Of a stretch of 64,000 nt of DNA, positions 17,974 to 36,750 are shown one piece after another. The notes under the pieces are model-generated. The model worked only from the letters and a program-made list of their open reading frames with translations, searched no databases and was not told the DNA's origin. Numbering within the stretch: the first letter of the stretch is position 1; the number at the start of each line of letters is the position of its first letter. A program made the position numbers and the translations under genes. Source of the stretch: Venenivibrio stagnispumantis (GTDB lineage: Bacteria; Aquificota; Aquificia; Aquificales; Hydrogenothermaceae); assembly GCF_900182795.1 (NCBI RefSeq), contig NZ_FXTX01000008.1:1-64000 (forward strand). Reading direction: 5' to 3'.

Positions 17974-18003
17974 TTGACAAAAATAAGCAAGAGGATATAT
18001 AAT
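17974..18003 (+). promoter_or_regulatory. Strong promoter of the tRNA-tuf-rpl operon
   Basis: A perfect TTGACA (17974-17979) and a perfect TATAAT (17998-18003) are spaced by 18 nt, 33 nt before the first tRNA. It is the only good promoter I see before rpsL and probably drives the tRNA genes, tuf and at least part of the downstream ribosomal protein/RNA polymerase genes. Confidence 0.8.
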
Positions 18004-18036
18004 ATTATTTGCAATTTTGCAATGGTTCTTGAATAG

Positions 18037-18109
18037 GCCGGTGTAGCTCAGTCGGCAGAGCAGGTGATTTGTAATCACCAGGTCGTGGGTTCAAGTCCCA
18101 CCGCCGGCT
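18037..18109 (+). tRNA. tRNA-Thr (anticodon TGT)
   Basis: 73 nt with a seven-pair acceptor stem (GCCGGTG with CGCCGGC, one T-G pair), TA at positions 8-9, a GCTC D stem, an anticodon stem GGTGA/TCACC around TTTGTAA, and a GTGGG/CCCAC T stem with TTCAAGT. CCA is not encoded. It is the first of the Thr-Tyr-Gly-Thr set that precedes tuf, an order also found in Escherichia coli. Confidence 0.96.
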
Positions 18110-18115
18110 TTTGAT

Positions 18116-18198
18116 GGAGAGGTAGCCAAGCGGCCAACGGCAGGAGACTGTAAATCTCCCGGCGCAAGCCTGCGTAGGTTCGAATCCTACCCTCTCCA
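18116..18198 (+). tRNA. tRNA-Tyr (anticodon GTA)
   Basis: 83 nt with a long variable arm (class II, expected for bacterial Tyr). The acceptor stem is GGAGAGG/CCTCTCC and the anticodon loop CTGTAAA carries GTA. A GTAGG/CCTAC T stem encloses TTCGAAT. The discriminator is A, and CCA is not encoded. Confidence 0.96.
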
Positions 18199-18203
18199 TA
18201 TAT

Positions 18204-18276
18204 GCGGGAGTAGCTCAGTTGGTAGAGCATCTGCCTTCCAAGCAGATGGCCGCGGGTTCGAGTCCCGTCTCCCGCT
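18204..18276 (+). tRNA. tRNA-Gly (anticodon TCC)
   Basis: 73 nt with acceptor stem GCGGGAG/CTCCCGC, D-loop TTGGTAGAGC, anticodon loop CTTCCAA (TCC), T loop TTCGAGT and discriminator T. It is followed after 2 nt by the structured spacer at 18279-18331. Confidence 0.96.
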
Positions 18277-18278
18277 CT

Positions 18279-18331
18279 CTTATCCGTTAAAAAGGACGCA
18301 AAAGGATAAGTTCGTCTTTTTGCGTCTTTTT
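18279..18331 (+). terminator. Terminator-like hairpin with alternative pairing, inside the tRNA-tuf operon
   Basis: A 12-bp stem, 18295-18306 with 18315-18326 (one G-T pair), has an 8-nt loop and is followed by TTTTTATATTTTT: a textbook intrinsic terminator. It lies between tRNA-Gly and tRNA-Thr, upstream of tuf. A competing 7-bp stem pairs CTTATCC (18279-18285) with GGATAAG (18304-18310). It uses three bases of the terminator stem and leaves GACGCAAAA in its loop free to pair with 18318-18326, so a pseudoknot is also possible. It may be an attenuator that sets how much transcription reaches tuf. Confidence 0.7.
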
Positions 18332-18341
18332 ATATTTTTAT

Positions 18342-18414
18342 GCCCAGGTAGCTCAGTCGGCAGAGCACACCCTTGGTAAGGGTGAGGTCGCGGGTTCAAG
18401 TCCCGTCTTGGGCT
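18342..18414 (+). tRNA. tRNA-Thr (anticodon GGT)
   Basis: 73 nt with acceptor stem GCCCAGG/CTTGGGC (one G-T pair), anticodon stem CACCC/GGGTG around TTGGTAA (GGT), T loop TTCAAGT and discriminator T. Lies directly after the terminator-like structure and 105 nt before tuf. Confidence 0.96.
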
Positions 18415-18519: not shown

Positions 18520-19710
18520 ATGGCAAAGGAAAAATTTGTAAGAGGAAAAGAACATTTAAACGTAGGAACAATAGGACACGTTGACCATGGTAAAACAACA
18601 TTAACCGCTGCTATCACTTATGTTTTATCTAAAAAAGGTCTCGCTAAATTCGTTGGATACGGAGATATTGATAAAGCTCCTGAAGAAAGAGAAAGAGGTA
18701 TTACTATTAACATAACCCACGTTGAGTATGAAACTGAAAAAAGACATTATGCCCACGTTGATTGCCCTGGACACGCTGACTATATTAAAAATATGATTAC
18801 CGGTGCTGCTCAAATGGATGGTGCTATCCTCGTTGTTTCTGCTGCTGATGGCCCTATGCCTCAAACTAGAGAACACGTTCTTCTTGCCAGACAGGTTAAT
18901 GTTCCTTATATCGTTGTTTTCTTAAATAAATGTGATATGGTTGATGACCCTGAATTGTTAGACCTCGTTGAACTTGAAGTTAGAGAGTTATTAAATAAAT
19001 ATGAATTCCCTGGAGATGAAGTTCCTGTTATTAGAGGTTCAGCACTTGGTGCTTTAAATGATGACCCTAAATGGGTTGCTTCTATTGAAGAGTTATTAAA
19101 AGCTATGGATGAATATATCCCAACTCCTCCAAGAGAAACTGATAAACCTTTCCTTATGGCTGTTGAAGACGTATTTACTATTACAGGAAGAGGTACAGTT
19201 GTAACAGGAAGAGTTGAAAGAGGTGTTTTAAAAGTTGGTGATGAGGTAGAGATAGTAGGACTTTCTGATGAGAAAAAGAAAACTGTAGTAACCGGAATAG
19301 AGATGTTTAGAAAAATATTGGATGAAGCAGTAGCTGGAGATAACATAGGGGTATTATTAAGAGGTATAACAAAGGATGAAGTAGAAAGAGGACAGGTATT
19401 GGCAAAACCTGGAACAATAACTCCACATAAGAAATTCAAAGCACAGGTATATGTGCTTAGCAAAGAGGAAGGTGGAAGACATACACCATTCTTCTTAGGA
19501 TACAGACCACAATTTTATATGAGAACAGCAGATATAACAGGGACAGTAGTAGGATTACCGGAAGGACAAGAGATGGTAATGCCTGGAGATAATGTAGAAT
19601 TAACAATAGAGTTAATGGTGCCTGTAGCTATGGAAGAGCAGATGAGATTTGCTATTAGAGAAGGTGGTAGAACTGTTGGTGCAGGTGTTGTTACACAAAT
19701 TATTGAGTAA
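18520..19710 (+). CDS. tuf: Elongation factor Tu (copy 1)
   Basis: EF-Tu delivers aminoacyl-tRNA to the ribosome as a GTP complex. The 396-residue protein has G1 GHVDHGKT, G2 RGITI, G3 DCPGH and G4 NKCD, then two beta-barrel domains ending in [11 protein letters not shown]. An AGGAGG precedes the ATG. The protein is identical to the copy at 35560-36750, and the DNA differs at seven synonymous positions, five of them within 18846-18888. Codon choice changes within the gene: Val is nearly all GTT from about 18580 to 19165, mostly GTA from about 19168 to 19632, then GTT again to the end. Context tRNA-tuf-rpmG-tRNA-Trp-secE-nusG corresponds to tufB of Escherichia coli. Confidence 0.98.
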
Positions 19711-19722
19711 GAGGGCTGAAAA

Positions 19723-19872
19723 ATGAGAGAAATAATAACCTTAGCATGTACAGAATGTAAAAGGAAAAATTACACAACAACAAAAAATAAAAGAAAACAT
19801 CCGGAAAGATTAGAGTTAAAAAAATATTGTAAATTTTGTAAAAAACATACTCTACACAGAGAGATTAAGTAA
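19723..19872 (+). CDS. rpmG: 50S ribosomal protein L33
   Basis: A 49-residue protein ([12 protein letters not shown]...) of the zinc-binding form of L33, with two CxxC pairs (CTEC at 9-12 and CKFC at 36-39). The ribosome site GAGGG overlaps the last bases after the tuf stop. The order tuf-rpmG-tRNA-Trp-secE-nusG is conserved in many bacteria. Confidence 0.95.
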
Positions 19873-19881
19873 TATTTGGTC

Positions 19882-19954
19882 GGGGTAGTAGCTCAATTGG
19901 CAGAGCAGCGGACTCCAAATCCGCAGGTTGAGGGTTCGAGTCCTTCCTGCCCCG
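19882..19954 (+). tRNA. tRNA-Trp (anticodon CCA)
   Basis: 73 nt with acceptor stem GGGGTAG/CTGCCCC, discriminator G as usual for bacterial Trp, an anticodon stem CGGA/TCCG around CTCCAAA (CCA), and T loop TTCGAGT. It lies 9 nt after rpmG, and its 3' end is 13 nt before the secE start codon. Confidence 0.96.
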
Positions 19955-19967
19955 CTTGGAGAAAATG

Positions 19968-20159
19968 ATGTCTATAAAAGAAGGTATTAACTTTTTAATA
20001 GAAGTTAAAGAAGAGCTAAAAAAAGTTACATGGCCATCTAAGGAGCTTGTAAAAAATGCTACGATAGCAGTGATTGTTTTTACCTTACTTGTTTCTCTTT
20101 ATCTTTGGGGATTAGATATAATTTTTTCAAAAATAATAACATTTTTATTAGAGAGGTAA
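19968..20159 (+). CDS. secE: Preprotein translocase subunit SecE
   Basis: SecE is the small clamp subunit of the SecYEG channel. The 63-residue protein has the conserved cytoplasmic amphipathic part EVKEELKKVTWPSKEL and a single membrane helix (about 35-55), the short one-helix form common outside Enterobacteria. I choose the ATG at 19968 because GGAG ends 6 nt before it. ATG 19965 is nearly equal, while a TTG at 19956 would sit 2 nt after the tRNA and overlap the ribosome site. Confidence 0.93.
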   Translation: MSIKEGINFLIEVKEELKKVTWPSKELVKNATIAVIVFTLLVSLYLWGLDIIFSKIITFLLER

Positions 20160-20162
20160 TTG

Positions 20163-20906
20163 ATGCCTGAAGAAAAAGATGAGAAAAAGTGGTATGCTCT
20201 CTATACCCAATCTAACTTAGAAATAAGAGCAAAAGAAAATTTATTAAAGATGCTTGAATTAAATAACCTTTCTGATTTAGTTGATGAGGTTTTGGTTCCG
20301 GCAGAAGAAAAAGTTGTTATAAAAGCTCTTGGAAAAGAAAGATATAGATTATCTTTAAAAGGTGCAAATAGAGAAATACCTGTTCAAGGTAAAAAAGGAG
20401 AAACAATATTTGTTTTAGAAGATGGAACTGTAAGGGTAAAAGAAAGCGTACCTGGAGATGAGGCATGTGTAGCCCATAGCCCAATCTCAAAGCCTGGACA
20501 AAAAATCAGTTGTAAAGAAAACAGAACGGAAGCTAAAATTATTTTAGAAAATAAAGTTTTCCCGGGATATCTTTTAATAAAAGCTAAATTAACAGATGAG
20601 TTGATAGATTTAGTAAGAAAAACTCCTTATGTTATTGGTTTTGTCAGTGCTGGTGGAATACCTGTTCCTCTTGAAGAAAAAGATGTTATGAAAGTTCTCG
20701 GACAGATACAAAAAGGTGCTCCAAAAACAAAAAAATTATTATTTGTAAAAGGTGATAATGTAAGAGTTATAGAAGGTCCATTTATGAACTTTACAGGTGT
20801 AGTTGATGAAGTAATCCCTGATAAAGAAAAATTAGTTGTTTTAATAAATATTTTCGGAAGAGCAACACCGGTTGAACTTGATTTCTCCCAAGTAGAGAAA
20901 ATTTAG
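20163..20906 (+). CDS. nusG: Transcription elongation/antitermination factor NusG with large insert
   Basis: NusG binds the RNA polymerase clamp and couples transcription to Rho or to ribosomes. This 247-residue protein keeps the NGN start ([18 protein letters not shown]), the [11 protein letters not shown] strand, [12 protein letters not shown] and a C-terminal KOW domain ([20 protein letters not shown]). Some 70-80 residues (about 57-130) are inserted in the NGN domain, as known in Aquifex and, at the same place, Thermotoga NusG, against about 180 residues in Escherichia coli. The ATG at 20163, 6 nt after GAGG, is preferred to the overlapping TTG at 20160. It follows secE with no gap. Confidence 0.96.
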
Positions 20907-20941: not shown

Positions 20942-21379
20942 ATGGCAAAGAAAGTAACAGGAACAGTTGAGCTACTTATTCCGGCTCAACAAGCATCACC
21001 ATCTCCACCAGTTGGTCCTGCACTTGGACAACGTGGTGTAAATATTATGGAGTTTGTTAAAAGTTTCAATGCCGCTACGGCAAATATGAAACCGGGAACA
21101 TTAGTTCCGGTTATCATCACTGTTTATTCAGATAGGTCTTTTACTTTTGTCCTCAAAACTCCACCGGCATCTTATCTTCTAAAAGAAGCGGCAGGTATCA
21201 AAACAGCTGCATCTGACCCTAAAAGACAAAAAGTCGGCAAAATAACTGTAAATCAGCTTAGAGAAATCGCAGAAATGAAACTAAAAGACCTGAACACAGA
21301 AGATATTGAAGCTGCAATGAGAATTATTGCCGGTACTGCAAGAAGTATGGGAATAGAAATTGAAGGATATAAGGGGTAA
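20942..21379 (+). CDS. rplK: 50S ribosomal protein L11
   Basis: 145 residues, usual length. The N-terminal domain has the Pro-rich segment [19 protein letters not shown] that lies at the thiostrepton/GTPase-centre site, and the C-terminal rRNA-binding domain carries TARSMGI. A strong AAGGAGG precedes the ATG. First of the rplK-rplA-rplJ-rplL block. Confidence 0.97.
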
Positions 21380-21385
21380 GAAGCC

Positions 21386-22114
21386 ATGGCAAAAAGAGGA
21401 AAAAAATATTTAAAAGCTTTGGAATTGATTGATAAAAATAAAGCATATTCTTTGCCAGAAGCAATAGAAACATTAAAACAGGTAGAAAATGTTTTACAAA
21501 GAAAATTTGATGAAACAGTAGAGCTTATATTTAGACTTAATGTTGACCCTAAGTATGCAGACCAGATGGTAAGAGGCTCTGTTGTTTTACCTCATGGGCT
21601 TGGAAAAGAGTTAAAAGTGCTTGTTTTAACACAAGGTGAAAAAATTAAAGAAGCGGAAGAAGCCAGTGCAGATTATGTAGGTGGAGAAGAACTAATAGAC
21701 AAAATAGCCAATGAAAACTGGATTGATTTTGATGTTGTTATTGCTACACCTGATATGATGCCAAAAGTAGCAAAGCTTGGTAAAATACTTGGGCCAAGAG
21801 GATTAATGCCAAATCCAAAAGTAGGAACTGTAACAACAGATATAAAAAGAGCTGTAACGGAAGCTAAAAAAGGTAGAGTAGAATTTAAAGTTGATAAAAC
21901 AGGAAATCTACATGTTCCAATTGGAAAAATATCATTTGATACAAATAAACTTGTAGAAAACGCTCTTGCTGTAGTTGATGCTGTAATTAAAGCAAAACCT
22001 ACCGGTATAAAAGGAAATTATATTAAAAATGCTGTAATCAAAACAACAATGAGTCCGGCTGTAAAACTTGATGTTGCTCAGCTTCAAAAATCTTTAGAAG
22101 CTAAGGTAGCTTAA
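21386..22114 (+). CDS. rplA: 50S ribosomal protein L1
   Basis: 242 residues. The hallmark segment [21 protein letters not shown] is present, together with the C-terminal GTGNLH-like strand [12 protein letters not shown]1 builds the stalk at the E site and in Escherichia coli represses its own rplKA mRNA. I did not see an evident L1 decoy site here, though the leader was not folded. It starts 6 nt after rplK. Confidence 0.97.
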
Positions 22115-22127
22115 TTAGGAGGCGAAA

Positions 22128-22670
22128 ATGGCTGTTTTAGAAAGAAAATCAATACAAAAGAAGAAAGAGATAGTTCAAGAGCTAAAAGAAAAAATAGAAA
22201 AAGCTCCTATCGTGATACTCCTTGATTTTAAAAAGATAGATGCAAACTCGGTTGCAGATTTCAGAAAAGCCTTAAAAAAAGAAAATGCAGAGATGAAAGT
22301 TGTAAAAAATACACTTTTATATAGGGCTTGCAATGGGACACCACTTTATGATAAAATAGATATCTTCAAAGAGCAAACTGCTGTTATATTTGGTTATGGA
22401 GATATAGTAGCACCTGCTAAATTATTAAAAGAGTTTTTAAAAGGAAAAGAAGAAGCTAAAATTAAAGCAGGTCTTGTAGAAGGTGCATTTGCTACTGCTA
22501 AGGATATAGAAGCTGTTGCATCTTTACCAAGCAAAGAACAGCTTATTGCTCAGCTTCTTGCAGTTATGCAGGCACCTATTACAAACTTTGTGCGTGTGCT
22601 TAATGCACTGCCGCAAAAAACTGTTATGGTTTTAAATGCTATAAAAGAGCAAAAAGAGAAACAAGGTTAA
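22128..22670 (+). CDS. rplJ: 50S ribosomal protein L10
   Basis: 180 residues. The N-terminal rRNA-binding domain has the typical VLLDFKKIDANSVADFRKAL-like start and KVVKNTLLYRA, and a C-terminal helix holds the L7/L12 dimers. Only 13 nt separate it from rplA, so the long structured L10 leader of Escherichia coli is absent here. Confidence 0.97.
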   Translation: MAVLERKSIQKKKEIVQELKEKIEKAPIVILLDFKKIDANSVADFRKALKKENAEMKVVKNTLLYRACNGTPLYDKIDIFKEQTAVIFGYGDIVAPAKLLKEFLKGKEEAKIKAGLVEGAFATAKDIEAVASLPSKEQLIAQLLAVMQAPITNFVRVLNALPQKTVMVLNAIKEQKEKQG

Positions 22671-22705
22671 TTTTTAAATAAAATTTTATAGGAGGTTTAA
22701 ATAGT

Positions 22706-23089
22706 ATGGCAACAATTTCAAGAGAAGAAATCAAGGAAGCTATCAAGTCTATGACTGTATTAGAACTCTCTCAACTTGTAAAAGAGTTAGAAGAAGAGTT
22801 TGGAGTTTCTGCTGCTGCTATGGTAGCTGCTGCTCCTGCTGCTGTTGGTGGTGCTGCTGCTCCTGCTGCAGAAGAAAAAACAGAGTTTGATGTAATACTC
22901 ACAAATCCTGGAGCTAACAAAATTAATGTAATTAAAGTTGTTAGAGAAATTACAGGACTTGGATTAAAAGAAGCTAAAGATTTAGTAGATGGAGCACCAA
23001 AACCAATTAAAGAAGGCGTTTCTAAGGATGAAGCTAACCAAATCAAAGCTAAATTAGAAGAAGCTGGTGCTACTGTCGAAATTAAGTAA
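22706..23089 (+). CDS. rplL: 50S ribosomal protein L7/L12
   Basis: 127 residues: an N-terminal dimerisation helix pair, an Ala/Pro-rich hinge (about 36-56) and the C-terminal factor-binding domain ([20 protein letters not shown]). AGGAGG lies 11 nt before the ATG. In Escherichia coli it is made in excess of its neighbours, and the hairpin after this gene would help by attenuating rpoBC. Confidence 0.97.
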
Positions 23090-23130: not shown

Positions 23131-23160
23131 AAAGGCAGGCCAAGGGATAGGTCTGCCTTT
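23131..23160 (+). terminator. rplL-rpoB attenuator hairpin
   Basis: An 11-bp stem (23131-23141 with 23150-23160, one G-T pair) has an 8-nt loop and is followed by AATCATTTTAA, which is a poor U tract. Its place between rplL and rpoB matches the partial terminator known in Escherichia coli that lowers rpoBC relative to rplJL. Partial read-through is therefore expected. No promoter was seen between it and rpoB. Confidence 0.65.
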
Positions 23161-35536: not shown

Positions 35537-35559
35537 AATTTAGAAAGGAGGTTATATAT

Positions 35560-36750
35560 ATGGCAAAGGAAAAATTTGTAAGAGGAAAAGAACATTTAAA
35601 CGTAGGAACAATAGGACACGTTGACCATGGTAAAACAACATTAACCGCTGCTATCACTTATGTTCTATCTAAAAAAGGTCTCGCTAAATTCGTTGGATAC
35701 GGAGATATTGATAAAGCTCCTGAAGAAAGAGAAAGAGGTATTACTATTAACATAACCCACGTTGAGTATGAAACTGAAAAAAGACATTATGCCCACGTTG
35801 ATTGCCCTGGACACGCTGACTATATTAAAAATATGATTACCGGTGCTGCTCAAATGGATGGTGCTATCCTCGTTGTTTCTGCTGCCGATGGCCCTATGCC
35901 TCAAACAAGAGAACACGTTCTCCTCGCAAGACAGGTTAATGTTCCTTATATCGTTGTTTTCTTAAATAAATGTGATATGGTTGATGACCCTGAATTGTTA
36001 GACCTCGTTGAACTTGAAGTTAGAGAGTTATTAAATAAATATGAATTCCCTGGAGATGAAGTTCCTGTTATTAGAGGTTCAGCACTTGGTGCTTTAAATG
36101 ATGACCCTAAATGGGTTGCTTCTATTGAAGAGTTATTAAAAGCTATGGATGAATATATCCCAACTCCTCCAAGAGAAACTGATAAACCTTTCCTTATGGC
36201 TGTTGAAGACGTATTTACTATTACAGGAAGAGGTACAGTTGTAACAGGAAGAGTTGAAAGAGGTGTTTTAAAAGTTGGTGATGAGGTAGAGATAGTAGGA
36301 CTTTCTGATGAGAAAAAGAAAACTGTAGTAACCGGAATAGAGATGTTTAGAAAAATATTGGATGAAGCAGTAGCTGGAGATAACATAGGGGTATTATTAA
36401 GAGGTATAACAAAGGATGAAGTAGAAAGAGGACAGGTATTGGCAAAACCTGGAACAATAACTCCACATAAGAAATTCAAAGCACAGGTATATGTGCTTAG
36501 CAAAGAGGAAGGTGGAAGACATACACCATTCTTCTTAGGATACAGACCACAATTCTATATGAGAACAGCAGATATAACAGGGACAGTAGTAGGATTACCG
36601 GAAGGACAAGAGATGGTAATGCCTGGAGATAATGTAGAATTAACAATAGAGTTAATGGTGCCTGTAGCTATGGAAGAGCAGATGAGATTTGCTATTAGAG
36701 AAGGTGGTAGAACTGTTGGTGCAGGTGTTGTTACACAAATTATTGAGTAA
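35560..36750 (+). CDS. tuf: Elongation factor Tu (copy 2)
   Basis: Same 396-residue protein as copy 1. The near-identity starts at the ATG and continues 14 nt past the stop (through GAGGGCTGAAA), then ends abruptly, while the leaders differ apart from AGGAGG. The seven synonymous differences are at 35665, 35886, 35907, 35922, 35925, 35928 and 36555. This pattern indicates recent gene conversion. It has the same internal switch from GTT to GTA and back. It corresponds to tufA of the str operon and continues without a gap into the S10 block. Confidence 0.98.

Follow-up and report, generated by a model that had tools for sequence, protein, structure and literature searches.

A conserved hairpin between tRNA-Gly and tRNA-Thr in a tRNA-tuf operon of Hydrogenothermaceae is a putative partial terminator

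An operon in which tRNA genes precede a gene for EF-Tu is known from E. coli and Salmonella, where the order is thrU-tyrU-glyT-thrT-tufB and the regulatory changes described lie at tufB itself (C-60T, G-29A/T/C and C36T); the excerpts of that source at hand make no mention of a hairpin between glyT and thrT (PMC6134099). Elsewhere in E. coli, rplL and rpoB are decoupled by an attenuator in the gap that separates them, while part of the transcripts go on (PMC4670729, in excerpt). The ABC-transporter operons of Clostridia contain internal stem-loop terminators, with measured termination of 20.7-96.1%, which set transcript ratios, and there stem-loops and promoters belong to different cluster types (PMC9045158, in excerpt). 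Tuning within an operon by a hairpin that stops only part of transcription is, then, an already known kind of control. As judged from titles and abstracts, we found no description of such a hairpin between tRNA-Gly and tRNA-Thr, and tuf is not among the terms used in the available part of PMC4227106.

The window that we analysed is a stretch of 64,000 nucleotides from Venenivibrio stagnispumantis (contig NZ_FXTX01000008.1, positions 1 to 64,000), whose nearest named relatives by NusG are Hydrogenothermaceae, including Sulfurihydrogenibium and Persephonella. On its plus strand the genes run tRNA-Thr(TGT), tRNA-Tyr, tRNA-Gly, a 64-nt spacer with the hairpin, tRNA-Thr(GGT), tuf, rpmG, tRNA-Trp, secE, nusG, rplK, rplA, rplJ, rplL and rpoB (Table 1). 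The order of tRNA genes and tuf is identical to that excerpted for the E. coli/Salmonella tufB operon; unlike that operon, ours has a hairpin at the tRNA-Gly/tRNA-Thr junction and extends into rpmG, secE, nusG, the rpl genes and rpoB. A comparably strong promoter precedes the first tRNA-Thr in relatives. As a separate observation, the CCA end of tRNA-Gly is encoded in relatives from several genera, not in g1 (that of the window), g4 or g5. A second tuf copy is also present, and at 35559-35760 all 202 bases compared, including about 30 before the start codon, are identical to the first, which suggests gene conversion between the two copies.

Table 1. Features of the tRNA-tuf operon and of the spacer between tRNA-Gly and tRNA-Thr(GGT), in window coordinates
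Feature	Position	Strand	Basis
Operon promoter TTGACA-18-TATAAT, 12/12 of consensus, sigma-70-type	17974..18003	+	promoter scan
tRNA-Thr (TGT)	18036..18110	+	ARAGORN, Rfam
tRNA-Tyr (GTA)	18115..18199	+	ARAGORN, Rfam
tRNA-Gly (TCC), CCA not encoded	18204..18277	+	ARAGORN, Rfam
Spacer tRNA-Gly/tRNA-Thr(GGT), contains hairpin and both pairings	18278-18341	+	sequence
Rival stem, 5' arm CTTATCC, found in the window's genome only	18279..18285	+	sequence; missing in 7/7 relatives
Hairpin, 5' arm (12-bp core 18295-18306)	18290..18307	+	folding, alignment
Rival stem, 3' arm GGATAAG	18304..18310	+	sequence
Hairpin, 3' arm (core 18315-18326), last U's shared with U tract	18314..18331	+	folding, alignment
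U tract TTTTTATATTTTT	18327..18339	+	sequence
tRNA-Thr (GGT), first gene 3' of hairpin	18342..18414	+	ARAGORN, Rfam
tuf (EF-Tu)	18520..19710	+	NCBIfam
rpmG (L33)	19723..19872	+	NCBIfam
tRNA-Trp (CCA)	19882..19955	+	ARAGORN, Rfam
secE	19968..20159	+	NCBIfam
nusG	20163..20906	+	NCBIfam
rplK, rplA, rplJ, rplL	20942..23089	+	NCBIfam
rplL-rpoB intergenic hairpin (comparison element)	23131..23160	+	family-wide conserved

In the spacer, GACGCAAAAGGA pairs with TCTTTTTGCGTC to form the core stem (11 Watson-Crick pairs and one G-U), and flanking A-U pairs lengthen it to 18 pairs; G-C pairs account for 5/12 of the core and 5/18 overall, so the stem is A-U rich. The hairpin (18290-18331) folds at -22.5 kcal/mol, a value equalled by none of 200 dinucleotide shuffles (mean -7.3, z -6.4), and its 3' side is followed by 6 T in the first 8 positions and 12 in 15: a stable stem-loop with a U-rich tract directly 3' of the stem, as in an intrinsic terminator. 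The shuffles, together with the covariation described below, establish that this 12-18 bp hairpin is more than chance. Rfam placed only the tRNAs above threshold in the window, and no leader or riboswitch; three sub-threshold matches fall at 18260-18360, none of them near threshold.

An orthologous hairpin lies just 5' of tRNA-Thr in 8 of the 41 genomes of our family set, from four genera: the window's own genome (g1), two in g4, three in g5 and two in g7. When these eight are aligned, all 120 pair cells hold standard pairs; sliding the 3' arm as a control lowers pairing to 44-72%, and a separate prediction by RNAalifold arrives at these 15 pairs as well. Both sides have changed at 4 of the 15 pairs (GACGT/ACGTC, for example, becomes GACGC/GCGTC in some and GATGT/ACATC in others), six vary on one side only and five are invariant; with close relatives among the eight, the covariation amounts to few independent events. 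All eight keep the T-rich tail (10-12 T of 15). A covariance model built from the same eight genomes matched, at E <= 0.001, the tRNA-Gly/tRNA-Thr locus only, in 8/41 family genomes and in 8 of the 136 of the phylum set, where the search, as with any of more than 40 genomes, used a filter that may lose weak matches; given how the model was built, these matches show uniqueness per genome and not independent discovery. At that threshold, with weaker matches present elsewhere, a scattered terminator repeat is rejected by the confinement of the matches to one locus, and the hairpin is instead an element specific to that locus. Its conservation as an element is well supported; as a terminator it is putative. 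The terminator-like hairpin that a preliminary description of this DNA had placed between tRNA-Gly and tRNA-Thr thus proves to be conserved with compensatory changes, which is consistent with termination, and the coordinates and pairings given there, including a 7-bp stem that overlaps the inner three bases of the terminator stem, can be read directly.

A perfect stem of 15-18 bp that stands between a tRNA and the coding RNA 3' of it, with every pair conserved, might also be thought a processing site, for instance for RNase III, which would part the tRNA precursor from tRNA-Thr-tuf or protect an RNA end with no termination at all. Such a site has a precedent in E. coli metY-nusA-infB, where RNase III cleavage releases the tRNA (cited in PMC5371410, in excerpt). 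The T-rich tail, however, is kept in all eight hairpin genomes and would be unneeded for processing, and most relatives manage without the hairpin. Furthermore, RNase P together with 3' processing is enough to release tRNA precursors. We consider a purely processing role unlikely.

What lies behind the hairpin bears on whether termination would be partial or complete. From 18003 to rpoB, the sole promoter-like match of at least 10/12 on the plus strand is one of 10/12 inside tuf, in a window scan that overall finds no more than shuffles do. The region upstream of thrT is readable in 28 of the 41 family genomes; the other 13 are cut by contig ends or missing pieces, and they were inspected again together with G053 and G025 (15 genomes in all). 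In none of the eight hairpin genomes is a promoter recognisable between tRNA-Gly and tRNA-Thr, the best matches being 6-9/12, scores that 124 or more of 300 shuffles attain in every one of the eight. Among the 20 hairpin-free genomes, 15 have a near-consensus promoter 5' of tRNA-Thr (10-11/12, reached by at most 4/300 shuffles), while five (G039, G051, G045, G073 and G006) offer 8-9/12 at best, which suggests that the scan misses some promoters or that their spacers work differently. Judged by these spacers, the family has two wirings, one with the hairpin and no promoter and one with a promoter and no hairpin; those five cases are unclear.

Two side observations concern the region 5' of tRNA-Thr. 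The tRNA-Thr-tuf promoters of loci L015-L017, L019, L020, L024 and L074-L077 share a T-rich start region, TATAATATNTTTTTGCTTG, 3' of the -10 box. At L027 (G051) a short hairpin, AAAAAGG...CCTTTTT, lies flush with tRNA-Thr behind a possible promoter, TTGCAC-17-TATCAT, and may be what is left of the conserved hairpin.

The near-consensus tRNA-Thr promoters of those 15 relatives could also be taken to mean that termination at the hairpin is complete and that tRNA-Thr-tuf has a promoter which our scan missed, because it uses another sigma factor or overlaps the hairpin. The two g4 genomes do have TATGTT behind the hairpin, 17 nt from TTATCA or TTATTA (8 and 7 of 12). Against this, no hexamer pair rises above shuffles in any of the eight hairpin genomes, and the -10-like hexamers 3' of the stem are located within the U tract, at a distance of 8-9 nt from the tRNA; we think a full stop improbable. 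The hairpin stands between genes of one unit, with no promoter recognised behind it, as an attenuator would. The nine matches listed for tRNA-Thr(GGT) in its own genome (an assembly of 41 contigs, 99.93% complete) include no second close copy, and core genes lie behind this tRNA, so transcription must pass the hairpin and read-through, we infer, is partial.

From the operon order, the hairpin, its U tract, the covariation and the lack of a recognisable promoter behind it, all of which are read in the sequence, we infer termination, its partial extent and a ratio-setting purpose: the hairpin at 18290-18331 with its U tract is likely to be a partial intrinsic terminator, that is, an intra-operon attenuator. 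Polymerase would start at 17974-18003 and transcribe tRNA-Thr, tRNA-Tyr and tRNA-Gly; a fraction would be released at the U tract; and the remainder would continue into tRNA-Thr(GGT), tuf, rpmG, tRNA-Trp, secE, nusG, rplKAJL and rpoB, such that the hairpin would set how much of the three leading tRNAs is made relative to all genes behind. Speaking against a partial terminator are the 20/28 readable family genomes that do without the hairpin and the A-U-rich stem, whose fold at 70 C is a modest -8.0 (nested-fold model).

The best reading of this putative partial terminator is by likeness to the E. coli rplL-rpoB attenuator, with which it shares a place within an operon whose genes serve translation and transcription, and it resembles the internal terminators excerpted from Clostridia in having a stem-loop and U-rich tail between operon genes. 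It differs from the former in parting tRNAs from tRNA-tuf, in being more A-U rich and in its presence, by the model, in 8/41 family genomes; from the latter, measured in protein operons, in having tRNA genes upstream and belonging to a thermophile; and from both in that its termination is predicted from sequence. The family has its own rplL-rpoB hairpin: its 3' arm, TCT[AG]CCTTT, with a T-rich tail was found in 22/22 loci that yielded both genes (26 were tried; L102 and L167 come from one genome). Since that hairpin is equally conserved, conservation appears usual for internal hairpins in this family and nothing special to the tRNA-Gly/tRNA-Thr junction.

Considering the history of the junction, an RpoB tree of 35 rows, made by a quick method and midpoint-rooted for drawing only, places hairpin genomes on either side of that root: one set belongs to a clade made up of g1, g4 and g5, the other to g7. 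G025 and G053, which are g5 genomes inside the first clade, have a promoter instead. The simplest reading would be an ancestral hairpin whose place a promoter took on two or more occasions. At the G053 locus (L018) tRNA-Thr departs from its usual sequence before the 3' end and the contig is probably chimeric; with its tRNA-Thr truncated, this odd locus carries little weight in the history.

The preliminary description had gone further and proposed a switch, in which a 7-bp stem, CTTATCC with GGATAAG, would compete with the terminator or form an H-type pseudoknot with it, possibly tipped by tRNA processing, so that either form could decide how much RNA enters tRNA-Thr, tuf and beyond. The two arms are fully complementary, 18304-18306 are common to this rival and to the 12-bp stem, and on paper the H-type geometry holds: a second stem of 9 bp (18295-18303 with 18318-18326) and loops of 9 nt (18286-18294) and 7 nt (18311-18317). 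Seven pairs are reached in 1.6% of 2000 shuffles of the window's flank, a figure for one genome and uncorrected for picking from 64 kb, so the rival is only marginally beyond chance. When the flank was compared with the left arm or loop in the seven relatives with the hairpin, the longest helices were 3, 3, 4, 3, 3, 5 and 4 bp, none beating shuffles (the flanks of two g7 genomes were shortened); the conserved competing pairing expected of an antiterminator is therefore found in 0/7. Organisms of this group grow near 70 C, and in the nested-fold model the rival stem weakens from -7.0 at 37 C to +0.2 at 70 C, against -8.0 for the hairpin, and has an equilibrium probability of 3e-11 at 37 C and 3e-6 at 70 C. 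Nor need the pseudoknot prevent termination, as it leaves nine pairs adjoining the U tract; as far as termination goes, the mutual exclusion that had been claimed does not really hold. Rfam, too, brings no leader or riboswitch close to threshold. An attenuator regulated by this pairing is very improbable, and both antiterminator and pseudoknot were rejected on missing conservation and energy. Of the pseudoknot the geometry alone fits, its first stem being unconserved and unstable at 70 C; the rival fold and the pseudoknot look accidental. Lack of conservation in relatives had been named as a ground for refutation; the terminator stem withstands it and the rival stem does not, and control over the flow of RNA into tRNA-Thr, tuf and beyond could, by position, belong to the hairpin and not to the rival form.

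Because nusG, rpl and rpo genes lie behind the putative partial terminator, we also consider, as a doubtful extension, that it is a factor-dependent feedback attenuator tuned by the abundance of NusG (or NusA), and that lineages losing the hairpin substituted a separate tRNA-Thr-tuf promoter. By eye, the NusG of the window reads VRKTPYV where that of B. subtilis has VRNTPGV. NusG residues N81 and T82 are named in the part of PMC12288461 available. Read by eye, the leaders 5' of the first tRNA-Thr have no boxA-like motif in common. If true, such tuning would place feedback on the whole translation-transcription operon through a weak, A-U-rich site.

The conserved hairpin, then, probably stops part of the transcripts, and the tempting but unsupported pseudoknot switch can be struck off. 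An old junction, tRNA-Gly to tRNA-Thr-tuf, would be wired in two ways within one family, by a read-through hairpin or by a separate promoter, and this may offer a small natural comparison for the balance of tRNA and EF-Tu output in thermophiles.
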